From NCBI GenBank assembly GCA_029564115.1, contig JAKQQP010000461.1:1-25106 (forward strand): DNA of 25,106 bases, written 5' to 3'. This document shows positions 3,261 to 25,046 of this stretch, piece by piece. Position numbers and translations under genes: made by a program. Numbering within the stretch: position 1 is the first letter of the stretch; each line of letters begins with the position of its first letter. The stretch comes from Candidatus Rifleibacteriota bacterium (lineage in GTDB: Bacteria; Riflebacteria; Ozemobacteria; Ozemobacterales; Ozemobacteraceae). Below the pieces are notes generated by a model. The model did not search any database, was not told the DNA's origin, and saw only the letters and a program-made list of their open reading frames with translations.

Positions 3261-3463
3261 CCGCGGATGAACACAGATAGACGCAGATAAAGGCAAAGAA
3301 GAGAGAGAAAGAGAGAGAAAGAGAGAGAAAGAGAGAGAAAGAGAAAGAAAGAGAGCCACGGATAAACTCGGATAGACGCAGATAAAGGCTAAGAAGAAAG
3401 AGAAAGAGGAAGAGAAAGAGGAAGAGGAAGAGAAAGAGAAAGAGGAAGAGAAAGAGGAAGAGG
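3261..3463. repeat. Compound repeat: GGATGAACACAGATA-type unit plus purine tract, duplicated
   Basis: A unit of about 40 bp (3261-3300: CCGCGGATGAACACAGATAG...) is followed by four exact copies of GAGAGAGAAA (3301-3340). A diverged copy of the unit (3356-3395: CCACGGATAAACTCGGATAG...) is followed by a second tract of AAAGAGGAAG-type units to about 3463. The head sequence resembles a family of bacterial intergenic repeats with alternating GGAT/AGAT steps. The second tract is almost pure purine on the plus strand, so H-DNA or slippage is plausible. A minus-strand ORF here reads poly Leu-Phe and is an artefact. Confidence 0.75.
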
Positions 3464-3650
3464 GTTATAGTGGGTGGGGAGTGCTGACTGGCGCAACATC
3501 GGAAGATAAAATGATCATATTTGAACAATGGTTGGCAAAGCAAAAAGGTCGCAATCTGTTGTGAAAAGCGTATATTTAATTGCAATATAGAAAAATAGAG
3601 AAAAAAAGTTAAAATAGATAGCAATTTGGCGAAATGGTTCGATAAATCAG

Positions 3651-4037: not shown

Positions 4038-4391
4038 ATGGAAATTGGGAATGTACGGCCTGTTCTTGAACCAACAATAAGTGGTAAGCCGGTCGAGGCT
4101 GTAAAAAATCAGGGAGAAATCTCTGACGGTAAAGTTCTTGAAGCTGCAAAAGAAAATAAAGAGAAAAGTGAAGAAGAACTCAAAGAAGCGGTCGATAAGT
4201 TAAATAAGACTGCGGTGATTTTTGACAGATCATTGCGGTTCCAGGTGCATGACAAAACTCATCGCACCATGGTTTCCGTGGTCGACATCGTTCAGGATAA
4301 AGTCATCAGGCAGATTCCGACCGAAGAAGTTCTTGATCTTGTGGCTAAAATGGATGATTACCTTGGTCTGATATTTGATAAAAAAGCATAA
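4038..4391 (+). CDS. flaG: Flagellar protein FlaG
   Basis: Encodes 117 residues. AAAGGAG lies 10 nt before the ATG at 4038; an in-frame upstream extension lacks a ribosome site. Residues 1-55 are charged and probably disordered (Lys/Glu-rich, coiled-coil tendency). Residues 57-115 carry the FlaG core: L-R-F-Q-V-H-D, then V-D-I-V-Q-D-K-V-I-R-Q-I-P and E-E-V-L-D-L-V-A-K-M. The I-R-Q-I-P-x-E-E block is the family hallmark. FlaG proteins influence filament length and are usually encoded next to fliD, as here. Length is typical of the family. Confidence 0.9.
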   Translation: MEIGNVRPVLEPTISGKPVEAVKNQGEISDGKVLEAAKENKEKSEEELKEAVDKLNKTAVIFDRSLRFQVHDKTHRTMVSVVDIVQDKVIRQIPTEEVLDLVAKMDDYLGLIFDKKA

Positions 4392-4445: not shown

Positions 4446-7424
4446 ATGGTAAGCAGCATCAGTAGAAACTGGGTAGGCGGGCTTTCGAGTGGTCTCGACA
4501 CGCAATCGTTGATCGACCAGCTCATCAAAGCGGAGAGCTTTTCCAAGTTCAGCCTGCAAAGAAAGCGCAATACTATAACTTACCAGCGCGACATGCTTCA
4601 GGAGGTTAACCTGAAGCTGTTTGACCTGCAGAATAAAGCGACAGACCTGACTTTCAGCAAAACCTTCAATTCAAAAAAAATCGATTCGAGTGACCCGCGA
4701 ATTGTAAACGCCAGAGCCACTACTGAAGCGGCTATTGGCAGTTATACCGTTCATGTTAAGCAGATTGCCACCGCTACAAGTGTGGCGTCAAAAGCGAAAC
4801 TGGCCAGTTCTCTCGAACTTGGTCAGAACATCACTTCTGACAAGAAACTTGGCGGTTCTTCAACTACTCTCGATGCTCTTGGGGTGTCTCCCGACAACCT
4901 TGAGGTGCGCATCGTCGGTGGCGGTTCGGGTACCTTCAACATTACTCCGGGTGTCGATGGTTCGAATTCGGTCGAAGATATGGTTACGCTGATGAATGTC
5001 AGCATAGCGAACAAACCTGAACTGAAGGGCAAGCTGAATGTTTCTTTCGACGACAAGAGCAACAGGCTGAAATTCAACCTGCTCGATCCGAGCCTCAAAC
5101 TTGAGATTGCTGACAGCGGCACTTCGAATATTATTTCTTCGATGTTCGATGCCGGCGGGCAGATTGAACTCAATAAAGATATTCCGGTAAAAGATTCTGT
5201 TCTGAAAAATATCAGATCAGGCATGAACGCAACCCTTGCTGATCTTGGCATCAATCAGGGCACTTTCAATATTGAAAGAAGCGAAACCGGTATCAGTGAG
5301 GCATTTGATATTTCCGGTCTGTCGTCAGACACTTCAGTTTCCGATCTGTTAAGCTTTCTCAACAGGGAAATAGATACTCGTGGCAGTCTGGTCAAAGGTG
5401 GCGTTCCTACCGGTAATCCAGCTGATCGTCTGGTTGAGTTTCGCTTTGACTCTGCCAGCGGCAAACTGCGTCTTCTCAATACCAGCTCGGCAGATTCTTC
5501 TCAAATCCACATTACTGACGGTTCTGGTAACATGTCGGCGAAACTTTTCGGTTCAGCCAACAAAGTTTCGTTGCTCGACAAGGGCGAAAAGCTGGCCAGT
5601 GAGACTTTTGCTATTCCGGTAAGCTCTGGTACTTTTACGGTTGATGGAGTTCAAATCAGCGTTAATGCCCAGACTGACGATCTGCAGGGTGTTCTGTCGC
5701 GAATAACTGCTTTAACTGATATCAACGCCACTTACGATTCTGCCCGCGATGTCATCACTTTCACCCGCAAAGATGGCAGCAACGCCCCGATCGGGGTTGG
5801 CTCATCGACAGATACCAGTAACTTTCTCAGCGTTACCGGCATGATTGCCGGCAGCCAGGCCGCTGCCGCAAATTTGAGCAGTTCCGGCAATCTCGCTAAA
5901 ACCCTCGACCAGGTGAGAAATTCTGATCTGACAAGCGAATTCGGTGCGGTCGCCGGTACTCTGCGCGTTATGGTCAACGGTCAGGCCAATGATATCGCCT
6001 ATGATGGCAGCGAGTCTCTGCAGCAGATTCTCGACAAAGTTTCGGCGCTGAAGGGTGTTGAAAAAGCCTATTATGACGCTTCAACCGGTAAGGTTAATAT
6101 TATCGGTCAGGATAAAGGCGCTTCGGCAACTCTTGAAGTTCGCGATATCAATGGTGGTAACCTCGCTGCCTCTCTAGGTCTAGATACCGGTGCTGCGAGC
6201 GGTTCTGATTATGGCGCTTCATTGACCAGTTCAAGACCGATTTCTGAAGTTAAAACCTCTTCACCCCTCAATGCTGCAGGTTTTGCGAATTCGATTACCG
6301 CCGGAACTTTCAGCATCAACGGCGTGAAGTTTTATATCGGCAGTACTTCGAGTATGACCCTTGATTCATTGATCAGTTCGATCAACAGTAATGCTAAAGT
6401 AGGCGTTAAAGCTCATTACGATCCGACCAACGGCCAGTTTGTGCTCACTTCTACCGAAACCGGTAACCGTGCGGTTGCTCTGGGGGCTGCCGACGATACA
6501 AGTAATTTTCTTTCAGCCATGGGGTTGAGTGGTGCCGTTCAAAATGTAGGCAAAAATGCCATTTACAGCGTAGACGGGTTGTATGGTGGCGCTGATCAGG
6601 TCAGCCAGACCAACAGTGTTACCAATGCCATACCTGGTGTCACTTTCGACCTTTACAACGTTACCAGTGCCGCCGGCACTATTATCAACGTCGAAGCCGA
6701 TACCGAAGTAGCTTCTAAGGCTATCAGCGAATTTATCACTGCTTACAATGAAGTGACCGAACTCGTTTATTCGCGTCTTTCTGAAGAACGAGACTGGGAA
6801 TTAACCGCTCTGACCGACAGTGAAAGAAATGCTCTCAGCGATGCGGATCTCAAGGCATACGAAGATGCCTACAAAGTGGGTCTGCTTTCGGGCGACAATA
6901 CCCTGAGATCGGTCAGATCACAGATGCGCATGGTGATGTCTTCTATCGTCCCTGGTGTTGATAAGATGTTCGACAGCCTTTCTGACCTTGGTATCAACAC
7001 TGGCGCCGTTGGTTCTGATTACAAGGCCACAATGGTCGGAACTCTGCAGATAAGCAGTCAGGAGAAGCTTGAACAGGCTCTGCGCGAGAATCCTGACAAG
7101 GTTGCCGAACTTTTTAATCGCGATTCGACCGATCCAAACAAAATGGGTATTGCCAGACGTCTTAAATTCTCGCTCAATGAATTTACCCGGTCAGACGGTC
7201 TTCTGACGAAACGGGTTGGTCGCTCGGGTGTGGCTTCAAACAGCGAAATGGATAAACAGATCAGTTTGATCAACAGTCAGATAGCCACCCAGGAAGAACG
7301 CTTGAAGAGCAGAGAAGAAGCCCTGTTAAAGCAATTTGCCAGTCTTGAAACCGCTCTGACGAACTACCAGTCACAGGCGACTGCCTTTTCCAACCAGCTT
7401 TCGCAGTTGTCTGGAGGCAAGTAA
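4446..7424 (+). CDS. fliD: Flagellar filament cap protein FliD (extra-long)
   Basis: Encodes 992 residues, about twice the enterobacterial protein. AGGAGG lies 7 nt before the ATG. The N-terminal domain starts with the family signature G-L-S-S-G-L-D-T-Q-S-L-I-D-Q-L (residues 11-25), followed by a coiled coil to about residue 70. Five IN-type modules follow, each opening with G-T-F/L and closing with Y/F-D...S-G-K/Q, at about residues 162, 272, 395, 504 and 620. The C-terminal FliD domain starts near residue 690 (Y-S-V-D-G) and ends in a long coiled coil (about 930-990) ending S-N-Q-L-S-Q-L-S. FliD forms the pentameric or hexameric cap that folds flagellin at the filament tip. The extra modules would be surface-exposed on the cap and are the variable, often adhesive or antigenic, part. 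Confidence 0.95.
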   Translation: MVSSISRNWVGGLSSGLDTQSLIDQLIKAESFSKFSLQRKRNTITYQRDMLQEVNLKLFDLQNKATDLTFSKTFNSKKIDSSDPRIVNARATTEAAIGSYTVHVKQIATATSVASKAKLASSLELGQNITSDKKLGGSSTTLDALGVSPDNLEVRIVGGGSGTFNITPGVDGSNSVEDMVTLMNVSIANKPELKGKLNVSFDDKSNRLKFNLLDPSLKLEIADSGTSNIISSMFDAGGQIELNKDIPVKDSVLKNIRSGMNATLADLGINQGTFNIERSETGISEAFDISGLSSDTSVSDLLSFLNREIDTRGSLVKGGVPTGNPADRLVEFRFDSASGKLRLLNTSSADSSQIHITDGSGNMSAKLFGSANKVSLLDKGEKLASETFAIPVSSGTFTVDGVQISVNAQTDDLQGVLSRITALTDINATYDSARDVITFTRKDGSNAPIGVGSSTDTSNFLSVTGMIAGSQAAAANLSSSGNLAKTLDQVRNSDLTSEFGAVAGTLRVMVNGQANDIAYDGSESLQQILDKVSALKGVEKAYYDASTGKVNIIGQDKGASATLEVRDINGGNLAASLGLDTGAASGSDYGASLTSSRPISEVKTSSPLNAAGFANSITAGTFSINGVKFYIGSTSSMTLDSLISSINSNAKVGVKAHYDPTNGQFVLTSTETGNRAVALGAADDTSNFLSAMGLSGAVQNVGKNAIYSVDGLYGGADQVSQTNSVTNAIPGVTFDLYNVTSAAGTIINVEADTEVASKAISEFITAYNEVTELVYSRLSEERDWELTALTDSERNALSDADLKAYEDAYKVGLLSGDNTLRSVRSQMRMVMSSIVPGVDKMFDSLSDLGINTGAVGSDYKATMVGTLQISSQEKLEQALRENPDKVAELFNRDSTDPNKMGIARRLKFSLNEFTRSDGLLTKRVGRSGVASNSEMDKQISLINSQIATQEERLKSREEALLKQFASLETALTNYQSQATAFSNQLSQLSGGK

Positions 7425-7458: not shown

Positions 7459-8070
7459 TTGGAAATATTATTGAACGGCACTCCTCTCGAAATTGAAGGT
7501 ATCGACAGCGAGGTAACCATTCTTCAGTTGATCGAAGTTGTTGAAGAATCGCTCAAGGGCACTGGCAGCACAGTTATTGAGATAATTCTCGATGGTGAAG
7601 CTTACAGCCCTGACGAAAGCGATAAGTTGTCGGAATTGCTGTTGGCGAGCTTTGCAAAAGTCGAGATAACGGCTGCAACAGCTACGGATATGGTTAGAGC
7701 CGCTTTTGAAGACGGTGAAGCAGGTGTCGATCACCTGGAAGAGCTGGCACATGCAGTTGCTTCGGAGCTGAGAATCGGCAAAATCAAGCCGGCCATGGAT
7801 AGCTACGTCGAGTTTGTCGATGGGGTGGAATGGTTGGTGACGATGCTCAATAACGCTCATCGCGCTTTTGCTGCCGGCATGGCGGAGTCCTCTGTCGAGG
7901 CGGATCGGCAGCAGTTACTGGTTCGGATGAGCGAACAGATGGCCGGTGTGCAATCTGCCCAGGAATCGGAAGACTGGGTTGGTGTTGCTGATATTCTCGA
8001 ATACGAGTTTCCTGAGATTTTTGTCGAAGCACGCCGCCTGATAGCCAAAATTCTTGAATGCAGCGGTTGA
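7459..8070 (+). CDS. Unknown flagellar-operon protein, 203 residues
   Basis: Starts at TTG 7459, with GAAGGTGA 5 nt upstream; no ATG or GTG sits in an equivalent position. Residues 1-70 look like a small alpha/beta (beta-grasp-like) domain with alternating hydrophobic strands: E-I-L-L-N-G-T-P-L near residue 2 and V-I-E-I-I-L-D-G near residue 39. Residues 75-203 are acidic and all-helical, with a long central helix region (A-F-A-A-G-M-A-E). No Cys pairs, signal peptide or membrane segment is visible. It lies 34 nt after fliD and 3 nt before maf, so it is translated with both. A chaperone for FliD, like FliT, or a partner of Maf is possible from position and helix content, but no family is recognised. 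Confidence 0.85.
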   Translation: MEILLNGTPLEIEGIDSEVTILQLIEVVEESLKGTGSTVIEIILDGEAYSPDESDKLSELLLASFAKVEITAATATDMVRAAFEDGEAGVDHLEELAHAVASELRIGKIKPAMDSYVEFVDGVEWLVTMLNNAHRAFAAGMAESSVEADRQQLLVRMSEQMAGVQSAQESEDWVGVADILEYEFPEIFVEARRLIAKILECSG

Positions 8071-8073
8071 TGA

Positions 8074-10014
8074 ATGAATAATGAAATGCTCAACAGGAAT
8101 CTGAATGCTTTGCGCCGGCACCCCGGCGCTTTCAGTGTCGTATGTGAGGCAGTGAAAACATGGCGTTCGGCTTCTTATCTCGTTGAGCAGGCCAAAACCG
8201 GCCACCCGGCCTTGATCTGCCAGGTCGAAGGGCAGCGGGCGGTGTCTTACCACAGTCGTTATGACCCGGTTAAAGAGGCCGAGAAGCAGGTGCAGGCCGG
8301 TTATGATGGCCAGACGCACGCAATGTTGCTGGGCTTTGGTCTCGGTTATATGGCTGAGCAATTACTCAGCAGGCTTACGCAAAGGGTAGCCGGGCCACAA
8401 CTGTTCGTTATCGAGCCAGATGCTGGAGTTTTTCTTGCGGCGTTGCAGGCTAGAGATCTTACCAGTTTTCTCAACGACAGCCGGGTAAGCCTGAGCGTCG
8501 GTTTGACAGCTGATGAAGTGGGGGAGCTGTGGAGCACGAACCTCGACTGGACGGCTCTTGAACGCCTGGCGATCGTCGACCATCCGCCTTCTGTGGGCAG
8601 GTTTAAACAATATTTTGAGCGCTTGGTCGAAAAAATCAGGTATCTGTGTAATCGTTCCAAGGGTAATCTTGTCACTCTCATGCATGCCGGTTTTGAATTT
8701 CATTCCAATTATTTTGCCAACCTCGCCGCCGGCTTTGAGTTGCCCGGAGTAGAGCGTCTTTTCGATCGCTTTAAGGGTGTTCCGGCTGTGGTTGTGGCTG
8801 CGGGGCCGTCTCTCGACCGCAATATGCATCTTCTTAAAGATGTTAAGGGGCGTTTTCCGATTGTGGCGGTTGATACTGCCCTCAGGCAGCTTGTTGCCAA
8901 CGGCATCAAGCCTGATATCGTCTGTGCTGCCGACCCTTCTTACGAGAATTCGCTCGATTTTGTCGGCGTCGAGAACGAAACCGATGTGGTGCTGGCGGTC
9001 GAACCCATGACTCACCCCGATATATTCGCCAGTTTCAAGGGGCCGAAAATGCTGATGACTTTCGGCGGTGGTCTGCACCCGGTTTTTAAAGACATGCGCG
9101 AACCGGTCGGCACTCTCGGGTGCTGGGGTTCTATCGCTACGACTGTATTTGATCTGGTTCGCCGTCTTGGGGCGGATCCGATCGTTTTTCTCGGGCTCGA
9201 CCTGTCGTTTCAGGATGGGCGATTGCATGCCCGTGGCTCTTATTCTGACGACCTGTTTTTTGAAAAAGTGCATCAGTTCACTTCGATCGAACATGAAGCG
9301 GCTGATTATATCAATACCCGCGGAGTTTTTAAGTTTGCGCGGGCCGATGGCGCTGTTCTTTACACAGACCAGAATATGAAGTTGTACAAAGACTGGTTTG
9401 AAGATCAGTTTCGTCAGACTTCTGCCCGCATTATCAATGCCACTGAAGGCGGTATTGTCGATAAATACGTTGAAAGAATGCCTTTTGCGAAGGTAATCGA
9501 GCAGTTTGCAGACAAAGCTGCTCCGGTTGCGGCAATTATCGGCGAAGCTTTGACTAAACCGGTTAAGGTTGATCGGCAGGCTTTGCTGAACCGCCTTGCC
9601 GGTTTCAAGAAGATGCTTCTGCAGAACGAAAACGCGGCAAGGCGTGCCGTTTCGGCCTGCCGTAAACTTCTGAGTTCTTCTGCGAATGTTGTTGCCGATA
9701 ACCTCGATGGCCGTGCCCGCGCCGAGTTTTTTGACGTTCTGCAGCTGCATGATGCTATCTGCAGTGACAAAGATCTGTTCCCGTGGTTTTCAGTTCACCA
9801 GACACGCTTTATCACTCGTCACACAATGGAAATACAGAGCCTCAAAGGAAACTCTGATACGACCGTCGAGCAGTGGCTGCGGCAGATTCTTGAATTTTTT
9901 GCCGCTCTCGACAGATTTCATGAATATCAGATCCCTTTGCTGCAACAGGCGATTGATTCCCTCAACAGGCAAAACAAATCGAAAAACGGTTCTGAGGGAG
10001 AGTTAATGCAATGA
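8074..10014 (+). CDS. maf: Motility accessory factor (Maf, DUF115/MAF_flag10), nonulosonic acid transferase
   Basis: Encodes 646 residues, typical for Maf proteins. The central DUF115 domain (about residues 235-400) shows V-V-V-A-A-G-P-S-L-D, then V-D-T-A-L-R-Q-L, G-I-K-P-D-I-V, A-A-D-P and F-L-G-L-D-L-S-F. These are the nucleotide-sugar binding core related to archaeal MptE and sialyltransferase-like folds. The N-terminal ~200 residues include L-G-F-G-L-G-Y near residue 90, usual for the family; the C-terminal ~200 residues are helical. Maf proteins attach pseudaminic or legionaminic acid to flagellin Ser/Thr in the cytoplasm before export. The pse genes at 19757-25106 would supply the donor. 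The gene overlaps fliS by 4 bp and has no strong ribosome site, so coupling to the upstream gene is likely. Confidence 0.9.
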   Translation: MNNEMLNRNLNALRRHPGAFSVVCEAVKTWRSASYLVEQAKTGHPALICQVEGQRAVSYHSRYDPVKEAEKQVQAGYDGQTHAMLLGFGLGYMAEQLLSRLTQRVAGPQLFVIEPDAGVFLAALQARDLTSFLNDSRVSLSVGLTADEVGELWSTNLDWTALERLAIVDHPPSVGRFKQYFERLVEKIRYLCNRSKGNLVTLMHAGFEFHSNYFANLAAGFELPGVERLFDRFKGVPAVVVAAGPSLDRNMHLLKDVKGRFPIVAVDTALRQLVANGIKPDIVCAADPSYENSLDFVGVENETDVVLAVEPMTHPDIFASFKGPKMLMTFGGGLHPVFKDMREPVGTLGCWGSIATTVFDLVRRLGADPIVFLGLDLSFQDGRLHARGSYSDDLFFEKVHQFTSIEHEAADYINTRGVFKFARADGAVLYTDQNMKLYKDWFEDQFRQTSARIINATEGGIVDKYVERMPFAKVIEQFADKAAPVAAIIGEALTKPVKVDRQALLNRLAGFKKMLLQNENAARRAVSACRKLLSSSANVVADNLDGRARAEFFDVLQLHDAICSDKDLFPWFSVHQTRFITRHTMEIQSLKGNSDTTVEQWLRQILEFFAALDRFHEYQIPLLQQAIDSLNRQNKSKNGSEGELMQ

Positions 10015-10439
10015 GTAACCCGTATACCCAGAATGCTGCTTATCGAAAAACGCAGGTGGAGACAGCTTCGCCTGAGGCCCTCATATTGATGCTTTATGAC
10101 GGGGCGCTGCGATTTATGGGGCAGGCAGAGATTGCTTTCGAAGAAAAGAATATCGAGCAGATCAGCAATATGCTGTTGCGTGTTCAGGCTATATTTGCCG
10201 AACTCATGAGCGCCCTCGATAAAGAGAAAGGCGGCGAAATTGCCGTGAATCTCGAACGTCTCTATGTGTTCTTTCTCGAGAAGCTCGGCGAAGCGAACGT
10301 TAAAAAAGACATCAAACCCATGCTGGAAATCAAGCCGCTGGTACAAAACTTGCGCAATACATGGGAAGAAGCCATGCAGAAGCTGCAGACTTCACAGCAG
10401 ATAACGCCGCCGCGCCCGCGATTGAACGTGGCAGTTTAA
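10011..10439 (+). CDS. fliS: Flagellin export chaperone FliS
   Basis: Encodes 142 residues. The start overlaps the maf stop as ATGA, and GAGGGAGAG lies about 11 nt upstream. The N-terminal signature N-P-Y...A-Y-R-K-T-Q-V-E-T-A-S-P-E-A-L-I-L-M-L-Y-D-G-A (residues 3-34) is diagnostic, followed by the four-helix bundle and the A-L-D-K-E-K-G-G-E-I-A-V-N-L loop (about 68-82). FliS binds the flagellin C-terminus, prevents early polymerisation and delivers it to FlhA. Residues 128-142 are a Pro/Arg-rich tail beyond the usual end. Confidence 0.95.
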   Translation: MSNPYTQNAAYRKTQVETASPEALILMLYDGALRFMGQAEIAFEEKNIEQISNMLLRVQAIFAELMSALDKEKGGEIAVNLERLYVFFLEKLGEANVKKDIKPMLEIKPLVQNLRNTWEEAMQKLQTSQQITPPRPRLNVAV

Positions 10440-10720: not shown

Positions 10721-10734
10721 TTGGGGAGATCGTT

Positions 10735-12393
10735 ATCAGCACCGGTATCATTTTTTACGTAAGCGGGTTGAAGAACCTGTACCGCAGCGATGTTGACCTG
10801 CAGAGTCCTGTGGTTGGTGGCCTGACTGCCCTCGAAATCCTTTTTAAACGGTTCCAGGGGCGCGGGAGTATTGCCGGAATGGTTCTTTCTTTGCCTGACA
10901 GCGAAAAATACGTTTCTCTGGCCGGGCAGGCCGAAATTCTCGGAATAAAAGTCAGCCGGTTCGCTGCGGCTTCGATTCAGGAAAAGCCTCTGGCGTTGCA
11001 GCAGCAGCGCTGGAACCTGGAAGATGACAGCGGTAACGATACCTGGCTGGGTGCAGCATTTGCTCAGGCGATAACTGAAATGGGCTGGCAGACCGCAATT
11101 ATGGTGCCTCTGACAAACCTTCTGGTTGAGCCTGATGCCGTGTTTTCGAGTCTTGTTCTGCATCGGCGTGAGTCTTTCGATATGACTGCCGCCGAAGAAC
11201 GCATCTGTGGCGCTGCCTGGTATATATTTGAAGCAGACCTTATCAACGGGCTGATGAAAAGTCATGCCGAGCTGATGTGGGCCCGCGGCGGTCTGGCGTG
11301 GGCGCTGCGCAAACCGTTGTACCCGTTTAAAATTGGTGCTTATCACTGCCCCAGAACCAGACCAGGCGTTGTCGCAGATTTGCGTTTGAATTCAAATCGT
11401 GCATTTCACACACTTTCAGTGGCCGCTGGTGCCGAATTCGCCTCCTCAGACTTTTCATACGATGAATGGCTTGCTAATTCTGGCTGGCAGGTCGCCTGGT
11501 GTGATTTTGCGCCGTTGATTATCAATGTTGAACCGGCCAGTCTATGTCAGGCTTCCTGTTTTGCCTGTGTCTACCCGCAAATGCAGCGTGAAAAACTGCT
11601 GATGACCCCCGAAATTTTTTCCCGAATCATAGATTCGTTCGACCCTGGTGATGACTGTCGATGGGTGTTTTCTGGTATGGGCGAGCCTTTGCTCAACCCT
11701 TTCATCGATCAGATGATTGCCAGAACCGCAAAGTTCAGTTCCATGCTGGTAACTTCGCTTCAAAAACTGCCGGTTGCCGATTTTCCGTATTCTGCTGTCG
11801 ATCAGATAAGAATCAGCACTGATGCTCTCACTGAAGAAGACTTCCGGCAGCGCCGTAACGGTTGTATCTGGCAAAACATCGAAAGCTTTCTCGATCTGGC
11901 CAGAGTTCGCAAACAAAGCGACAGCAAGGCTTTCCCTGAAATTGGCGTGAGTTGTTTGCGGCACCGGTTATCTGAAGCGCAGTTGCAGTCGTTTATCAAT
12001 TACTGGAAACAGGTTGTAAGGCCTGTGTTCAGAGAGCATTTTTTTCGTTGGCCGTTCGATACCGTTTCTGAGGCGATACAGTGGTTTCAGATCCTCGGTG
12101 AGGCTGAGTTTTTAAAAGCTCATACCCGGACTTCGCTGGTCGATTTTACGCCGGTTCGGCGCCGCCCCTGCCGCAATGCAACTCTTAGCCTGACGGTGCT
12201 CAGCGATGGTGGCGTGACGATTTGCCCTTATGATTTTGAGGGCCGGCATGTTTTTGCCAACGTCAAAGATGCTTCGCTCAAAGAAATCTGGCACTCTGAA
12301 TCCGCCAGAAACTTCAGAAACAAACATCTGCAGCTGCAACTCGAGACCACACCGGATTGTCAGAGTTGCCCCGACTGGTATCACCCTGTTTGA
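10735..12393 (+). CDS. Radical SAM/SPASM protein with SpsF-like N-terminal domain (spiro-SPASM-like)
   Basis: The frame is open from upstream of 10699. GGGGAG (10723-10728) points to ATC at 10735, 6 nt on; TTGs at 10699 and 10717 lie in or at the terminator and lack ribosome sites, and TTG 10768 would cut the domain. From 10735 the protein has 552 residues. The N-terminal ~230 residues resemble an SpsF/NTP-transferase fold (G-I-I-F-Y-V-S-G-L, then V-V-G-G-L-T-A-L-E-I-L-F) without the R-x-G-S-x-R-L-P-G-K nucleotide loop. A radical SAM core begins with C271-x3-C275-x2-C278 and has G-M-G-E-P-L-L-N-P. A SPASM domain near the C-terminus has P-C-R-N, T-I-C-P-Y-D and D-C-Q-S-C. This layout matches the spiro-SPASM proteins known from spirochaetes; their substrate is unknown. 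Location directly after maf/fliS suggests flagellar or sugar modification (inference). Confidence 0.85.
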   Translation: MSTGIIFYVSGLKNLYRSDVDLQSPVVGGLTALEILFKRFQGRGSIAGMVLSLPDSEKYVSLAGQAEILGIKVSRFAAASIQEKPLALQQQRWNLEDDSGNDTWLGAAFAQAITEMGWQTAIMVPLTNLLVEPDAVFSSLVLHRRESFDMTAAEERICGAAWYIFEADLINGLMKSHAELMWARGGLAWALRKPLYPFKIGAYHCPRTRPGVVADLRLNSNRAFHTLSVAAGAEFASSDFSYDEWLANSGWQVAWCDFAPLIINVEPASLCQASCFACVYPQMQREKLLMTPEIFSRIIDSFDPGDDCRWVFSGMGEPLLNPFIDQMIARTAKFSSMLVTSLQKLPVADFPYSAVDQIRISTDALTEEDFRQRRNGCIWQNIESFLDLARVRKQSDSKAFPEIGVSCLRHRLSEAQLQSFINYWKQVVRPVFREHFFRWPFDTVSEAIQWFQILGEAEFLKAHTRTSLVDFTPVRRRPCRNATLSLTVLSDGGVTICPYDFEGRHVFANVKDASLKEIWHSESARNFRNKHLQLQLETTPDCQSCPDWYHPV

Positions 12394-12450: not shown

Positions 12451-12771
12451 ATGACAGAACACCGTGTTTGCGTTCCTTGTTCTTCTGATGTGCCGCCTCT
12501 CGAACGGGAGGCCTGCGAAACCTATCTTGCCGGGTTGCCGGAGTGGCAGCTCGATGCCGATGCTACCGAAATTGTCAGAAAATTTACTTTTAAAGATTTT
12601 ACTCAGGCAATGGATTTTGCTGTCAAGGTCGGTCGCTTGTGTGACGAAATGGGGCATCACCCGGTTTTGACCGTTGGCTGGGGCTTTTGCCGGGTCAGAT
12701 TCAAGACTTCTAAGATTAATGGCCTGCACAAGAACGATTTCGTGATGGCGGCACACGTGAACCATCTTTGA
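12451..12771 (+). CDS. phhB: 4a-hydroxytetrahydrobiopterin dehydratase (pterin carbinolamine dehydratase)
   Basis: Encodes 106 residues, the normal family length; GGGAGG lies 6 nt before the ATG. The enzyme dehydrates 4a-hydroxytetrahydropterin formed by aromatic amino acid hydroxylases. The active-site block E-M-G-H-H-P (H69, H70, P71) is followed by V-G-W-G, V-R-F-K-T and G-L-H-K-N-D-F, all conserved. The N-terminus has P-L-E-R-E-A and L-P-E-W-Q-L as usual. No hydroxylase gene is present here, and homologues in bacteria without one may recycle other pterins, so the physiological substrate is open. The N-terminal C-V-P-C pair is common in this family. Confidence 0.93.
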   Translation: MTEHRVCVPCSSDVPPLEREACETYLAGLPEWQLDADATEIVRKFTFKDFTQAMDFAVKVGRLCDEMGHHPVLTVGWGFCRVRFKTSKINGLHKNDFVMAAHVNHL

Positions 12772-12840: not shown

Positions 12841-13713
12841 TTATTTGCAGCTTTTGCAGCCAATGTGAGCTTTGGCTTTGATGCATTCGCAGTTTTCGCC
12901 GCACTTGCCTTCGCTGCAGCATTTGCAGTCAGCGGTTCCGCAGCATTTGCAAGTCATCTTGGCTTTGTCGCCGCAGGCGTCTTTGTTCATTTTGCAGGCT
13001 TTTTTATGGAAATGCATTTTTTTGAACTTCTTTTCGCTGCAGGCTTTTTTGCATTCTTCTTCGCTCATGCTTTTGCATGCTTCTTTACCCATTTTTTCGC
13101 ATTTTTCTTTGCACGCAGCCATTTTATGGGCTTTTTTGCAGTGCATTTTTTTGCACTTCATCATTTCGCCGCAAGCTTTTTTGCATTCTTCTTTATTCAT
13201 GCCTTTGCATGCTTCTTTACCCATTTTTTCGCATTTTTCTTTGCATGCTGCCATTTTGTGGGCTTTTTTGCAGTGCATTTTTTTGCACTTCATCATTTCG
13301 CCGCAGGCTTTTTTGCATTCTTCTTTATTCATGTCTTTGCATTCAGACTCGCAGACATGTTTTCTGTGTTTGCGTGATTTTTTGTTGTAGCGGGACCAGG
13401 GCTTTTTGGCTTTAGGAGCTTCTTTGAGTTCTTCTACCTGTTTTTCTTCAACCTGTTTGCCGCTGGCAACGTTTTCGAGATAGTTTTCCCACTCAGCTTT
13501 TTTTTCGGCGAAAGTCAGATTGAGAATTTCGAGGTTCTGACGATCTTCGACGGTGGGGTTGCTTTTGGTGACCAGGCTCAGAATCTGCTGTCTGAGCGAC
13601 TGCATCTGACCAATGTGTTCGAGCCATGCCTCATTGCTGACTGCGCTGATTGTGCCGGCGAAAGCGGGCATTGCAAACATGAATCCAAGAAGAATTACCA
13701 GTAATTTCTTCAT
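12841..13713 (-). CDS. Exported Cys/Lys/His/Met-rich repeat protein, putative metal binder
   Basis: Encodes 290 residues from ATG 13713, with GGAGGT just upstream; an in-frame ATG at 13767 lies in the promoter. A clear signal peptide (M-K-K-L-L-V-I-L-L-G, likely cut after A-F-A-G/A-F-A) directs it to the periplasm or outside. Residues 20-118 are Cys-free and helical, with a K/E-rich linker. Residues 119-290 contain about 31 Cys with many Lys, Met and His. Two near-identical 44-residue repeats (125-168, 169-212) each carry C-x7-C-x3-C-x5-C-x4-C-x8-C-x3-C; a third is partial. The tail has C-K-C-C-G and C-K-C-C-S clusters. Spacing resembles metallothionein-like or copper/zinc-binding proteins, but no family is recognised; metal storage or detoxification is inferred. 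Confidence 0.85.
   Translation of the reverse strand: MKKLLVILLGFMFAMPAFAGTISAVSNEAWLEHIGQMQSLRQQILSLVTKSNPTVEDRQNLEILNLTFAEKKAEWENYLENVASGKQVEEKQVEELKEAPKAKKPWSRYNKKSRKHRKHVCESECKDMNKEECKKACGEMMKCKKMHCKKAHKMAACKEKCEKMGKEACKGMNKEECKKACGEMMKCKKMHCKKAHKMAACKEKCEKMGKEACKSMSEEECKKACSEKKFKKMHFHKKACKMNKDACGDKAKMTCKCCGTADCKCCSEGKCGENCECIKAKAHIGCKSCK
13078..13341 (-). repeat. 132-bp tandem duplication in the Cys-rich gene
   Basis: Units 13210-13341 and 13078-13209 are almost identical at DNA level, so the duplication is recent or kept by recombination. Each encodes one 44-residue Cys-rich module. The following segment, up to about 13020, is a diverged partial third copy. Confidence 0.85.
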
Positions 13714-13745
13714 ATTACCTCCGGTACTGAAATTTGAGTGATACC

Positions 13746-13774
13746 ATTTTACTGTACTTTTACTCAATTTGCAA
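13746..13774 (-). promoter_or_regulatory. Sigma-70-like promoter of the Cys-rich gene
   Basis: On the minus strand, TTGCAA (13774-13769), a 17-nt spacer and TAAAAT (13751-13746) fit TTGACA-N17-TATAAT. Transcription would start near 13739 and leave a leader of about 26 nt with GGAGGT before the ATG. No clear metal-regulator operator was recognised. Confidence 0.55.
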
Positions 13775-19756: not shown

Positions 19757-20740
19757 ATGCTTACAGGCAAATCGATTCTGATAACCGGCGGCACCGGATC
19801 TTTTGGCAAGGCCTTCGTTCGCAGAGTCTTGCGTGACCACCAGCCGCACAAGGTGATCGTGTATTCGCGTGACGAATACAAGCAGTATCAGATGGCACAG
19901 ATGTTCTCGTCAGACCGCCTGAGGTTCTTTCTTGGCGATGTTCGCGATGAAAAGCGTCTCTATCGCGCTCTAACCGGCGTAGATTACGTCATTCATGCGG
20001 CGGCGATGAAGCAGGTGCCAGCTTCAGAATACAACCCGTTTGAAGCCGTTCAGACCAACATCATGGGGGCGCAGAATCTGATAAATGCAGCTCTTGAAGC
20101 CGGGGTGCAAAAGGTGGTCGCTCTCAGTACCGACAAGGCCTGTAACCCGGTTAACCTCTACGGGGCTACCAAACTTTGTTCTGACAAGCTCTTTATTGCT
20201 GCTAACGCCTATTCTGGCAAGCTGGTTACCCGTTTTGCCGTGGTCAGGTATGGCAACGTTCTCGGGAGCCGGGGCAGCGTGGTGCCGCTGTTTCGTGATC
20301 TGGCCGCCAAAGGCGAAGAGATTCCCATTACCGATGAGCGTATGACCAGGTTTTCGATAACTCTGCCTGAGGCAGTTCAGTTTGTAATCGATTCTTTCGA
20401 ACTCATGTACGGTGGTGAGCTTTATATACCTAAAATACCCAGTCTGCGAGTGGTCGATCTTGCCGAAGCAGTTGCTCCGGGCATTAAAATTCGCCAGATT
20501 GGCATAAGGCCGGGCGAAAAACTGCACGAAATGATGATTTCGCGTGATGATTCCCGGCATCTGTTTGAAGTTGGCGATCGATACATCAAAATGCCAGATT
20601 TTCCGTTCTGGAAGGTCAGGTTGCCGGAAGGGGCCGTGCCGGTTGTTGACGGGTTCGAGTATGCCAGCGACACCAACAATATCTGGTTGAATGCAGAGCA
20701 GCTAAGAGATGTGCTCAAACAGGAAGGCGTCGTCGAGTGA
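19757..20740 (+). CDS. pseB: UDP-GlcNAc 4,6-dehydratase (inverting), PseB
   Basis: Encodes 327 residues; GGGAGAAC precedes the ATG. It converts UDP-GlcNAc to the 4-keto-6-deoxy L-arabino intermediate, the first step of pseudaminic acid synthesis. It is an extended SDR protein: NADP-binding G-G-T-G-S-F-G (11-17), H-A-A-A-M-K-Q-V-P near residue 80, T-D-K (125-127), and the Y-x3-K pair (Y135, K139) in N-L-Y-G-A-T-K. The early A-A-M-K and the T-D-K-A block separate PseB from RmlB-type dehydratases. The length fits soluble PseB rather than the large membrane FlaA1/CapD type. The stop overlaps pseC (GTGA). Confidence 0.95.
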   Translation: MLTGKSILITGGTGSFGKAFVRRVLRDHQPHKVIVYSRDEYKQYQMAQMFSSDRLRFFLGDVRDEKRLYRALTGVDYVIHAAAMKQVPASEYNPFEAVQTNIMGAQNLINAALEAGVQKVVALSTDKACNPVNLYGATKLCSDKLFIAANAYSGKLVTRFAVVRYGNVLGSRGSVVPLFRDLAAKGEEIPITDERMTRFSITLPEAVQFVIDSFELMYGGELYIPKIPSLRVVDLAEAVAPGIKIRQIGIRPGEKLHEMMISRDDSRHLFEVGDRYIKMPDFPFWKVRLPEGAVPVVDGFEYASDTNNIWLNAEQLRDVLKQEGVVE

Positions 20741-21942
20741 AGTTCATACCTTACGGGCGTCAACATATAACTGAGGCCGATATTGCGGCAGTGGTCGCGG
20801 TTCTCGAATCTGACTTTCTCACACAGGGGCCGGCCATAGAAAAATTTGAGAGGGCAGTCTGCCTCGAAACCGGTTCCCGTTTTGCGGTTGCCTGCAGCAA
20901 TGGCACGACAGCCCTGCATCTTGCTGCTGTCGCCGCCGGCGTCGGGCCAGGCGACACGGTGGTGGTGCCGCCGATAACCTTTGTCGCCAGCGCCAACTGC
21001 GCCCGTTATAACGGCGCTGAAGTTCTTTTTGCCGACATCGACCCGGCAACTCTGACCATGTCGCCGCTGGCCTGTAGAAAGATTCTTGAACGCTGCGCTG
21101 CGGCCGGTTGCCCGGTAAAGGCTGTCGTTACAGTGGACCTGGCCGGGCACCCCTGCGATATGCAGGCTTTTGCGCTTTTAAAGAAAGAGTTTGACTTTGT
21201 CTGGATTCAAGATGCCTGCCATTCGATCGGCGCGAGCTGGGAAGATAATCTCGGCATTCGCTGGAAGGTTGGAGAATTCCCGGAAGTGGACTTTACCGTT
21301 TTCAGTTTCCACCCGGTGAAGCACATCACGACAGGCGAGGGCGGGATGATCGTTACACCGTCTGAAACCTTTGCAGAAAATATGAGAAGGCATCGCAGCC
21401 ATGGCATTGTTCGAGATGCATCGGGTTTTTGCAACAACTCCGAAGCTTTTGCCGCAGACGGCAGCGCTAACCCCTGGTATTACGAAATGCAGAGTCTGGG
21501 TTTCAATTATCGAATGACCGATATTCAGGCGGCTCTGGGCACTTCGCAGTTAACGGGTCTTGCCGAAAATATTCTGCGGCGCCGCAGTATCGTCAATGCC
21601 TATAAATCACGCCTTGCCGGTTTGCCTTATGTCAGCTTCCCGGAAGTGGCTGAAGGGGTGGGGCATGCGTTTCATCTGGCTGTGATCAAAATAGACTTTG
21701 CCGCCGCCGGGCGTGAGCGGGCAGTGGTAATGAATGCTTTGAAGGCTGAAGGCATTGGCACTCAGGTGCATTATATACCGGTGCCGATGATGCCTTATTA
21801 TGCAGGGGCAGCAGCAGAAGAAGACTATGCCGAGGGGCTGGCCTATTATCGCCAGGCACTGTCGCTGCCATGCTTCCCGCAGATGAATGATGAAGATATC
21901 GAGCGGGTGTGCGCCGCCTTAAAGAAAGTTTTGGGCTTATGA
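20737..21942 (+). CDS. pseC: UDP-4-amino-4,6-dideoxy-N-acetyl-altrosamine transaminase, PseC
   Basis: Encodes 401 residues from GTG 20737, overlapping pseB by 4 bp, with AGGAAGG upstream. A DegT/DnrJ/EryC1 aminotransferase that moves an amino group from glutamate to C4 of the PseB product. The PLP lysine is K195 in F-H-P-V-K-H-I-T-T-G-E-G-G; D-A-C-H-S-I-G-A lies before it, and N-Y-R-M-T-D-I-Q-A-A-L-G follows. The N-terminal Y-G-R-Q-H-I-T-E-A-D-I is the PseC hallmark. The C-terminal G-I-G-T-Q-V-H-Y-I-P-V is intact. Confidence 0.95.
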   Translation: MKFIPYGRQHITEADIAAVVAVLESDFLTQGPAIEKFERAVCLETGSRFAVACSNGTTALHLAAVAAGVGPGDTVVVPPITFVASANCARYNGAEVLFADIDPATLTMSPLACRKILERCAAAGCPVKAVVTVDLAGHPCDMQAFALLKKEFDFVWIQDACHSIGASWEDNLGIRWKVGEFPEVDFTVFSFHPVKHITTGEGGMIVTPSETFAENMRRHRSHGIVRDASGFCNNSEAFAADGSANPWYYEMQSLGFNYRMTDIQAALGTSQLTGLAENILRRRSIVNAYKSRLAGLPYVSFPEVAEGVGHAFHLAVIKIDFAAAGRERAVVMNALKAEGIGTQVHYIPVPMMPYYAGAAAEEDYAEGLAYYRQALSLPCFPQMNDEDIERVCAALKKVLGL

Positions 21943-22730
21943 ACAAGCATGTAGAACGCGTTAAAAACCAGGTGATAATTCAAGCCAGAATGGGGTCGAC
22001 GCGTCTGCCTGGAAAAACAATGATGCCGCTGGCCGGCCGGCCGGTGCTCGAACACGTGGTCAGACGCAGCGGCGCTGCGATGCTGGTCGATCGCGTCGTC
22101 GTTGCTACCACCGATCTGGCAGGCGATGACGAACTCGAACGCTGGTGCGCAGAAAATGCGGTGCCATGCGTCAGGGGCAGCTCAGACGACGTGCTGGCCA
22201 GATATGTTCTGGCTGCCGAAAAGTTTCCGTGTGAAAATCTGGTGAGAATCACGGCTGATTGCCCGCTGATCGACCCCGGAATCATCGATGCGCTGCTTTC
22301 TCTGCACCTCGATGGTAATAAAGATTATACTGCAAACGTCATTCCGCCGACTTTTCCGGTGGGGTTCGATGCCGAAGTGGTTAAAACAGAGGTTTTGCGC
22401 CAGGTTGGCGAAAAGGCCACCCTGAACTCGCATCGAGAACACGTGACCCTTTATATTCGCGAGAATCTCGAACAGTTTGCTGTGGCCAACCTGAGTTACG
22501 GCAAAAATTACGAGCATATCAGGCTCACTCTCGACCGCGATGCCGACTATCAGCTTTTGCAGGCTGTATTTGCCCACTTTGCCGCCTCACCGCCACTGTT
22601 TTCGTTTTATCAGGTGATGGATTTTCTGCTGCAGAACGAGCATCTTATTACGATAAATGCCCAGGTAGACCGTTTTGAAGGGATGAACAAATCGGCTGCC
22701 GCCGAGAATCGAAAACTCAAATGGCAGTGA
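21939..22730 (+). CDS. pseF: CMP-pseudaminic acid synthetase-type cytidylyltransferase (SpsF/PseF-like)
   Basis: Encodes 263 residues from ATG 21939, overlapping pseC by 4 bp; a GTG inside pseC was discarded. It activates the finished nine-carbon sugar with CTP to the CMP donor used by glycosyltransferases. The SpsF-family nucleotide loop Q-A-R-M-G-S-T-R-L-P-G-K (15-26) is complete, with M-P-L-A-G-R-P-V-L-E-H following, R-I-T-A-D-C-P-L-I-D-P near residue 104, and R-E-H-V-T-L-Y near residue 166. It is of the SpsF type found in Bacillus-like clusters rather than the Campylobacter PseF type. The radical SAM protein at 10735 carries a related but loop-less domain. Confidence 0.88.
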   Translation: MNKHVERVKNQVIIQARMGSTRLPGKTMMPLAGRPVLEHVVRRSGAAMLVDRVVVATTDLAGDDELERWCAENAVPCVRGSSDDVLARYVLAAEKFPCENLVRITADCPLIDPGIIDALLSLHLDGNKDYTANVIPPTFPVGFDAEVVKTEVLRQVGEKATLNSHREHVTLYIRENLEQFAVANLSYGKNYEHIRLTLDRDADYQLLQAVFAHFAASPPLFSFYQVMDFLLQNEHLITINAQVDRFEGMNKSAAAENRKLKWQ

Positions 22731-24016
22731 AGCTGAGTCGCCACGGGCTGATGAATGTCAGAACCGCCGTTTTCAGAGTCGATGCCGGGCCTGGTATTGG
22801 CATGGGGCATTTTATGCGTTGTCGCACCCTCGCTTTTGAGTTGATAAGCCGCGGCTGGGATGTTTATTTTGCCGGTTGCGGTCTGCCCGCTGATATGCTC
22901 GAACAGACACCCGGCAACCCGGCAAAGACGATCAAATTGATCGACTTGCAGAGTTTTTTGAATTCGAAATCAGATGCGATGAGTTTTTATTCGCTTCTGA
23001 CCGGGCAGTTTAACGGGCTGGTCGATTGTGCCGTCATTGATACCTACAGTTACAGCCGCGATGATTTTGCTTTGTTTCAACGTTTCAATACTCAGCGGTT
23101 GCCGATCATCGTGATCGATGATCTTGCTGACCGTGATACGCCGGCGCAGATTGTCATAAATCCCAACCCGCTGTTCGAACCGCTGCCATACGAGCGCCAG
23201 AAAATACCGCTTATTCTCTGCGGGCACGAATACACGCTCGTCAGACCGGAAATATCACGACTGATAGGCAGGCCATACCGGCATGACGGCCCGGTGATGG
23301 TTTCTCTGGGCGGCGGCGATGTGGTAGATTACCTGCTGAAGGTGCTTGACGCGATACCTGATGATCTCGAAAACAGTTTGTGCGTTTCTGTTTCTGATAA
23401 TTGCCCCAGAGCAAAACTCGAAGCCTGGGTTGCCCAGAACCCGACGCGGCGTTACCTCAATTTCGACAGCCGGAAGTTTCCTGAGCTGCTGGCCAGCGCG
23501 GCGCTTGCCATAACCGGTGGCGGCACCACCCTCTGGGAAGTCTACGCTCTGGGTATGCCCAGTTTCTGCCTGCGGTGGGTAGAGAATCAACGTCAGACTT
23601 CTTCGGTAATCAAAGAGCAGGCGACCAGTTTTCTTATGGATATCGTCTCGCATTTTAATATAAATCTGCAGTCAGAATGGCTTGGCGGCAGTCTGAAAAC
23701 CATTGCCGAGACGGTGGGGTTACCGGCGAATTCTCGAGCTCTTCAGCAACAGGAATTTTGCGTCGATGAATTGATAAGTCGTTCGCAGACCAGCCTGGGA
23801 ATCGGCAACAGTGATTTGATCGATTCTGCTTTTATCGCTGCGATGTTGAGGCGTTGCTGCCATGAACCTGAATTCTGGCGGCAGATGATCGAGAGACAGC
23901 AGGCATTGATCGATGGTCGCGGTGTCAGTCGTTGTGTCGATGCGATCGAAAAGTTTACTTGGCGCGAGGTTCCTTTATTTGAAGCCGACTGGAGAAGGAA
24001 TTATGAAAATTGGTAA
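22721..24016 (+). CDS. pseG: UDP-sugar hydrolase PseG, with a large C-terminal insertion
   Basis: Encodes 431 residues, against about 275 for Campylobacter PseG. It overlaps pseF by 10 bp; Met11 (22751) is another possible start and begins nearer to the conserved core. PseG removes UDP from the acetylated altrosamine sugar. The core has F-R-V-D-A-G-P-G-I-G-M-G-H-F-M-R-C (catalytic His about 29), I-D-D-L-A-D-R near residue 129, S-L-G-G-G-D near residue 191, and A-I-T-G-G-G-T-T-L-W-E. The usual C-terminal pattern I-D-G-R-G-V-S-R appears only near residue 396, so about 90 residues (roughly 300-385) are inserted. The extra part has no recognised domain. The 3' end overlaps pseI by 14 bp. Confidence 0.9.
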   Translation: MAVKLSRHGLMNVRTAVFRVDAGPGIGMGHFMRCRTLAFELISRGWDVYFAGCGLPADMLEQTPGNPAKTIKLIDLQSFLNSKSDAMSFYSLLTGQFNGLVDCAVIDTYSYSRDDFALFQRFNTQRLPIIVIDDLADRDTPAQIVINPNPLFEPLPYERQKIPLILCGHEYTLVRPEISRLIGRPYRHDGPVMVSLGGGDVVDYLLKVLDAIPDDLENSLCVSVSDNCPRAKLEAWVAQNPTRRYLNFDSRKFPELLASAALAITGGGTTLWEVYALGMPSFCLRWVENQRQTSSVIKEQATSFLMDIVSHFNINLQSEWLGGSLKTIAETVGLPANSRALQQQEFCVDELISRSQTSLGIGNSDLIDSAFIAAMLRRCCHEPEFWRQMIERQQALIDGRGVSRCVDAIEKFTWREVPLFEADWRRNYENW

Positions 24017-25046
24017 ATTCGAAATAGGCGAAAACAAGCCCTGCTTTATAATTGCAGAGGCCGGCAGTAACCATAACAGAGATTTTGACAACGCGAAAAA
24101 ACTTGTCGATGTGGCGGTAGAAGCCGGTGCAGACGCGGTAAAGTTTCAGATTTTTTCTGCAGAGGCTATTTATTCTAAAAAAACGCCAATGGCCAGCTAT
24201 CTTAAAAAGGGCAATCTGACCAAAGATAATGAAACCCTCTGGGACCTGATCAAAAGAATCGAAATTCCCAGACACTGGACGCCCGATTTGAAGGCCTACT
24301 GCGATAAAAAAGGCATAATGTTTCTTTCGACGCCGTTCGATTTGAAGGCTGTTGACGAGCTTGAAGCCGCCGGGGTCGAAGCTTACAAGGTCGCCAGTTT
24401 CGAAATCACTCACCTACCGATGCTGCGTAAAATTTCGGCGACGGGCAAGCCGATCATTCTTTCGACAGGCATGGCCAGCCTTGAAGATATCGAAGTCGCT
24501 CTGGCGGCCATCAGAGAGGGAGGCAGTAGCCAGGTCGCCCTTCTGCACTGTGCCATTGCTTACCCGCCCCGTTACGAAGACATCAATCTGCGAGCCATGG
24601 ATACCATGAAACAGGCTTTTCAGGTACCGGTAGGTTTTTCTGACCATACGATGGGGCACGTTACCGATGTGGCCGCCGTGGCACGCGGTGCTTGTATCAT
24701 CGAAAAGCATTTTACCCTTTCGCGCAATCAGGAAGGGCCTGATCACCCGTTTTCGCTTGAACCGGCTGAACTCAAGGAGATGATCACGGCCATCAGGCAG
24801 ACCGAAAAAATTCTCGGAACACCTTTTAAATACCACACTGAGGCCGAAAATGAGCTTTATCGTATTGCCCGGCGCAGCCTGGTCGCTGCAATGGCGATAC
24901 CCGCCGGAACAGTGATCACCGAAGATATGCTGGCTGTAAAACGCCCCGGTTTTGGTATTCCGGTCAGGCACATGAATATAGTCGTTGGCAGAACGGCAAA
25001 GGTCGATATCGATGAAGACGATATTCTCAAATGGGAAATGATCTAA
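24003..25046 (+). CDS. pseI: Pseudaminic acid synthase PseI
   Basis: Encodes 347 residues from ATG 24003, with GGAGAAGG upstream; a longer reading into pseG is not supported. It condenses the hydrolysed altrosamine with phosphoenolpyruvate to pseudaminic acid. The NeuB-type TIM barrel shows I-I-A-E-A-G-S-N-H-N (15-24), D-A-V-K-F-Q near residue 46, S-T-P-F-D near residue 103, G-F-S-D-H-T-M-G near residue 213, and I-E-K-H-F-T near residue 234. The C-terminal SAF domain (about 287-347) has R-R-S-L-V-A, G-T-V-I-T and K-R-P-G-F-G-I. Legionaminic and sialic synthases are close relatives; PseB/PseC context favours pseudaminic acid. Confidence 0.94.
   Translation: MKIGKFEIGENKPCFIIAEAGSNHNRDFDNAKKLVDVAVEAGADAVKFQIFSAEAIYSKKTPMASYLKKGNLTKDNETLWDLIKRIEIPRHWTPDLKAYCDKKGIMFLSTPFDLKAVDELEAAGVEAYKVASFEITHLPMLRKISATGKPIILSTGMASLEDIEVALAAIREGGSSQVALLHCAIAYPPRYEDINLRAMDTMKQAFQVPVGFSDHTMGHVTDVAAVARGACIIEKHFTLSRNQEGPDHPFSLEPAELKEMITAIRQTEKILGTPFKYHTEAENELYRIARRSLVAAMAIPAGTVITEDMLAVKRPGFGIPVRHMNIVVGRTAKVDIDEDDILKWEMI

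Follow-up and report, generated by a model that had tools for sequence, protein, structure and literature searches.

Background

BtrN, a 2-deoxy-scyllo-inosamine dehydrogenase (4m7t), combines a radical S-adenosylmethionine (SAM) core with a four-cysteine Twitch domain, and its four-cysteine auxiliary cluster has been suggested as the acceptor of the second electron (excerpts of PMC6231123 and PMC9012708). In spirochaetes, known here from Leptospira relatives, the spiro-SPASM family (TIGR04321) places an SpsF-like domain before a radical SAM core and a Twitch domain; a literature search on the family name found no paper. Here we analyze a gene of the same layout in a window of 25,106 nucleotides, the whole stretch of DNA studied, from a Candidatus Rifleibacteriota bacterium (assembly GCA_029564115.1, contig JAKQQP010000461.1). 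The gene encodes an SpsF-like - radical SAM - Twitch fusion protein, which we propose, with a probability of about 0.5, to act in flagellin glycosylation as a radical SAM oxidoreductase or as a related enzyme that modifies sugars by radical chemistry. FliB, the flagellin lysine methyltransferase, modifies flagellin and carries a [4Fe-4S] cluster (excerpt of PMC8598068), as the fusion enzyme is predicted to do; no FliB model appeared among the NCBIfam matches, and whether the library includes such a model was left unchecked.

Domain structure of the fusion protein

The domains and their coordinates are given in Table 1. The CX3CX2C motif was present in all 78 family proteins and the core has the SAM barrel fold, which places the protein in the radical SAM superfamily, as the initial annotation of this DNA had stated. 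All seven cluster cysteines and a GxGEP stretch (G326, G328, E329 and P330), which we take to be the SAM-binding motif, were invariant in 26 of 26 members.

The auxiliary domain had been annotated as a SPASM cluster domain, and its match to PF13186 cannot tell SPASM from Twitch. The seven-cysteine SPASM pattern is CX9-15GX4C-gap-CX2CX5CX3C-gap-C (excerpt of PMC6231123), and CX2CX5CX3C occurred in none of the 78 proteins; a full SPASM domain was therefore rejected on its cysteine count. On the other hand, four Twitch cysteines were invariant in 26/26 members and aligned with those of BtrN, and the strict spacing pattern was found in 70 of the 78 proteins. The eight misses were P0032 (420 residues), P0053 and P0055, which lack CxxCxDWY, and P0034, P0036, P0047, P0049 and P0051, which keep CxxCxDWY with a different spacing. 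Judged by its cysteines, the domain is a BtrN-type Twitch, a truncated SPASM with one predicted auxiliary cluster.

BtrN was the closest solved relative of the fusion protein by sequence, and also by fold among radical SAM chains; the top three rows of the Foldseek search alone were BtrN, SuiB and 6oew. The CX3CX2C spacing is identical in the two proteins (BtrN side from an excerpt of PMC9012708). Their identity is 18%, and BtrN, a 246-residue chain aligned to model residues 269-561, lacks the SpsF-like domain. The last two gaps between auxiliary cysteines were equal in the alignment; the first gap in BtrN is 18 residues, which presumes the place of its first auxiliary cysteine.

The N-terminal domain has the SpsF/CTP_transf_3 cytidylyltransferase fold, and its elements follow the same order as in SpsF-type enzymes (6oew and the intact enzyme encoded elsewhere in the window). 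It differs from them by an additional segment, which contains EKP...QQRW...EDDSG in most members. The initial annotation described an SpsF/PseF-like domain from which the RxGSxRLPGK loop was gone. The loop was indeed found in 0/78 proteins and only 5 of 28 conserved SpsF positions were retained, including R51, G171 and D227 at 100%; a plain deletion was rejected, as the aligned place holds replacement sequence. A Pfam search of the window protein gave no PF02348 match to this domain up to E 1. These features support the earlier suggestion that the domain may bind and not make a nucleotide sugar; for the degenerate domain, binding without activation is probable.

The likeness to spirochaetes noted earlier was borne out for the architecture and not for the family. 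The window protein scored 77 bits against TIGR04321 (cut-off 250) and the cut-off was reached in 0/15 genomes, so that membership was rejected. When the N-terminal domains of the Riflebacteria family and of spiro-SPASM were compared on their own, no match was obtained (E 0.024, probability 2%). In a tree of the core regions (41 rows) either family formed a single clade (100/99) and the two were not joined; their placement relative to each other was weak and the branches were long. Since Leptospira FlaB1 is probably glycosylated (excerpt of PMC13144727), a role shared with the spirochaete proteins is possible. The term "radical SAM" did not occur in an excerpt of PMC3438082, which deals with nonulosonic acids of Leptospira.

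Conservation of the locus

Named homologs came from Candidatus Riflebacteria, Rifleibacterium and Ozemobacteraceae. Twelve of the 15 genome records carried Riflebacteria-type names, and those named Erysipelotrichia, Methylomirabilis and 'bacterium ADurb.Bin157' (G002, G005 and G006) belong to the same phylum set. Among 39 genomes of the phylum some match was found in 22 and a full-length one in 19. Radical SAM matches of 645 and 450 amino acids were also seen, in G011 and G008 respectively.

In the window the fusion gene follows flaG, fliD, a conserved gene of unknown family, a Maf-type gene, fliS and a 60-codon open reading frame (ORF). The gene fliS lay just upstream in 17 of the 19 genomes (within 0.6 kb in 16, at 2.6 kb in G015, locus L015), an adjacency kept down to 40% protein identity, and Maf was found in 12/15 loci; it was missing from L013, from L014 and from L001, the contig of which begins inside fliS. 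This conserved place beside flagellar and Maf genes agrees with the flagellin-glycosylation setting proposed initially.

The occurrence of the fusion gene was compared with that of flagellar and sugar genes, with p values that ignore the kinship of the genomes and with assembly completeness not given. FliS was encoded in 19/19 genomes with the gene and 11/20 without it (Fisher p 0.0012), flagellin in 19/19 and 14/20 (p 0.020) and MptE-like proteins in 19/19 and 12/20 (p 0.0033). PseC above its cut-off was found in 16/19 against 3/20 genomes (p 2e-5) and SpsF in 14/19 against 6/20 (p 0.010). A lack of co-occurrence with maf or pse genes in other genomes, which would have spoken against the initial annotation, was not seen.

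Genomes G033 and G034 lacked a full-length member and encoded SpsF-like - radical SAM - Twitch proteins of 517 and 508 residues. The N-terminal domain of the G034 sister scored 57.7 bits against the SpsF profile and 19.0 against PF02348 (below the cut-off of 22.6; the G033 copy was not listed), and the protein matched TIGR04321 end to end with 130 bits, again below cut-off. Its gene order, RmlD, GT2, WbqC, fusion, radical SAM, epimerase and PIG-L, is identical in G033; this sugar gene order ties the fusion architecture to sugar metabolism. Nine of the 17 neighbouring ORFs listed were scanned, and none was a flagellar gene. This sister fusion, with a second radical SAM gene after it, thus lies among nucleotide-sugar genes at L124 (9277-11767) and L125. 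For the wider context of L129, a Pfam scan of one ORF gave no match.

A viral origin was rejected: viral contigs, scanned twice, yielded 28 and 54 pattern matches but not one relative, and in the first 50 rows of predicted viral structures radical SAM and sugar-nucleotide proteins occurred as separate matches. A plasmid origin was also rejected: 11 records were found, and the 10 listed were at most 25.2% identical and started at query residue 214 or beyond, with 80% query coverage in none. The Leptospira interrogans spiro-SPASM protein gave one record in the plasmid search, its match confined to the core.

Translation start

The window carries ATC where orthologs start with ATG or GTG. Over 15 loci this position held ATC in three, ATA in four, ATT in two, ATG in four and GTG in one, and L014 has ATG four codons upstream. 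The ATC/ATA/ATT loci were L001-L005, L010, L012, L013 and L015 (9/15), to which the window is added; as the remaining four genomes (G025-G028) carry an ATG in the codon before this position, the total is 9/19 genomes. The stretch between the in-frame upstream stop and the ATC/ATA/ATT codon was free of ATG, GTG and TTG in 8/10 sequences (exceptions L003 and the window), and GGAG or GGAGGT stood 6-7 bases upstream in 7/10, with a G-rich stretch instead in L001, L010 and L015. Codons of these three kinds were absent from 116 aligned starts of 13 neighbour genes in the same loci, although the alignment misses the real start by at least one codon at some of them.

The infC gene has a start of this type under IF3 control. 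Of 30 infC loci from this phylum 18 were readable, and in 15 (L096, L098-L105, L107-L110, L113 and L122) ATC or ATT stood at one conserved place, six codons before the pattern; 7/15 had no in-frame upstream ATG, GTG or TTG. The other three (L111, L119 and L120) have ATG three codons ahead of that place. Automatic gene calls in the fusion family often start inside the SpsF-like domain, for example at MTALQIL in P0018 and P0022. From these alignments we infer initiation at the ATC/ATA/ATT codons of the fusion gene. If true, the family would share a conserved non-AUG start of the infC kind, in a gene that has no part in translation.

Proposed function and alternatives

The computed results comprise the domains and their fold match, the lost SpsF positions, the pattern of cysteines, synteny and co-occurrence; the substrate, the reaction and the order of steps are inferred. 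The SpsF-like domain, no longer sugar-activating, would bind the substrate, plausibly a nonulosonate-type sugar linked to cytidine monophosphate (CMP) or to flagellin, and hand it to the radical SAM barrel. There the CX3CX2C cluster and SAM would generate a 5'-deoxyadenosyl radical that abstracts hydrogen from a sugar carbon, and the Twitch cluster, with four cysteines as in BtrN, would accept the second electron to give a keto sugar or a follow-up product. Maf would then attach the modified sugar to flagellin held by FliS. The fold of the fused domain, the standing of BtrN as nearest solved relative and the sugar cluster around the sister fusion favour a sugar; synteny favours a flagellar role. 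Literature searches brought up no publication that describes radical SAM chemistry on flagellin glycans.

Three observations weigh against this proposal: FliS is retained in 11/20 genomes without the fusion gene; 2/19 genomes (G013 and G014) hold the gene apart from flagellar genes, with none among the ten neighbours scanned; and protein-acting radical SAM enzymes came near in both the sequence and the fold comparisons. The copies in question (L013 and L014) are the most diverged (33-35% identity) and lie beside unrelated genes, with FliS and flagellin elsewhere in the same genomes.

Because of these protein-acting matches a peptide substrate is possible: the enzyme could act on flagellin, FliD or FlaG and change a side chain of one of these flagellar proteins, with the SpsF-like domain as a protein-docking scaffold. 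We consider this unlikely, as the best sequence match is a cyclitol enzyme, the added domain has a sugar-activating fold and the sister fusion is surrounded by sugar genes. The two genomes with a displaced gene, the polysaccharide-type cluster around the sister and the presence of Ugd, a nucleotidyltransferase and opposite-strand LptF downstream would fit an enzyme that modifies a nucleotide sugar destined for a polysaccharide such as lipopolysaccharide or capsule, its place among flagellar genes being historical; the closeness of fliS in 17/19 genomes, even at low identity, and the absence of the gene from all five genomes that lack FliS as well as flagellin make this quite improbable. A role in the maturation of a metalloenzyme or cofactor, to which the names of the next-best profiles point (TIGR04317 and TIGR04311, matching 26/26 members), is very unlikely, with the window protein far below both cut-offs (63.8 of 380 and 48.2 of 400 bits) and no candidate target enzyme among the family-matched window genes. 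A purely regulatory or sensory role in glycosylation, without catalysis, would suit the degenerate N-terminal domain and the presumably weak start codon, and is hardly compatible with the invariant cysteines and GxGEP stretch.

Table 1. Features of the window around the fusion gene
Feature	Position	Strand	Remarks
FlaG	4038..4391	+	PF03646, 95 bits
FliD, filament cap	4446..7424	+	Profile matches
Conserved protein, family unknown	7459..8070	+	Between fliD and maf; conserved in loci
Maf-type (MptE-like) flagellin glycosyltransferase candidate	8074..10014	+	PF01973, 133 bits; PseD model, 69 of 670 bits
FliS flagellin chaperone	10011..10439	+	TIGR00208, 102.9 bits, above cut-off
Small conserved ORF, 60 codons	10462..10644	+	In 11/15 loci; no family above cut-off
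GGAG Shine-Dalgarno-like motif and proposed ATC start	10725..10737	+	GGAG 10725-10728, 6 nt before ATC 10735-10737
SpsF-like - radical SAM - Twitch fusion protein	10735..12393	+	Whole gene; 552 residues counted from ATC
SpsF/cytidylyltransferase-like domain	10735..11484	+	Residues 13-262; most conserved SpsF positions lost
Segment aligned to SpsF RxGSxRLPGK loop	10762..10791	+	SGLKNLYRSD, residues 22-31; LYR conserved
Radical SAM core	11503..12150	+	Residues 269-484; CX3CX2C at 11545-11568
Twitch auxiliary-cluster domain	12151..12390	+	C491, C509, C554, C557 (codons 12169, 12223, 12358, 12367); PF13186, 49.8 bits
Pterin-4a-carbinolamine dehydratase gene	12451..12771		Directly after fusion gene; downstream in 9/15 loci
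PseB	19757..20740	+	TIGR03589, 507 bits, above cut-off
PseC	20737..21942	+	TIGR03588, 461 bits, above cut-off
Intact SpsF-like cytidylyltransferase	21909..22730	+	RMGSTRLPGK loop; PF02348, 91 bits; comparison for fused domain
PseG-like	22721..24016	+	TIGR03590, 144.8 bits, slightly below cut-off (153.55)
NeuB/PseI-type nonulosonate synthase	23913..25046	+	TIGR03569, 407.5 bits, above cut-off; TIGR03586, 326.5, below cut-off

Neighbouring genes

Farther downstream of the fusion gene are ugd, a nucleotidyltransferase gene, pseB, pseC and spsF-like, pseG-like and NeuB/PseI-type synthase genes; LptF is encoded downstream on the opposite strand. The synthase passes the NeuB cut-off and fails that of PseI, and the intact cytidylyltransferase scored 24.8 of 205.7 bits against PseF, far below cut-off; the sugar made by these genes may therefore not be plain pseudaminic acid. 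The protein encoded between fliD and maf matched no family of NCBIfam or Pfam within the limits applied. The 60-codon ORF presumably resembles a YjfB-type motility protein, a likeness that no family above cut-off backs. Positions 12841-13767 (- strand) encode a protein of repeated Cys/His/Lys-rich units (CKKMHCKKAHKMAACKEKC) with no Pfam match and with relatives in several loci. Intergenic purine-rich simple repeats of the agagagaaag and gaaagagg types lie at 3295-3465.

Conclusions

A wider model can be offered tentatively, and is doubtful as a whole: a dead cytidylyltransferase would serve as the docking domain of a radical SAM dehydrogenase that edits a CMP-activated or flagellin-linked flagellar nonulosonate, in Riflebacteria and in spirochaetes with the same layout, and in part of the Riflebacteria a conserved AUC/AUA/AUU start, tied to IF3, would keep its translation low. 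Beyond the layout known from spirochaetes, the Riflebacteria gene keeps a conserved position next to maf, fliS and pse genes and has a sister fusion within a sugar cluster, which makes a substrate class, flagellar glycan sugars, testable.
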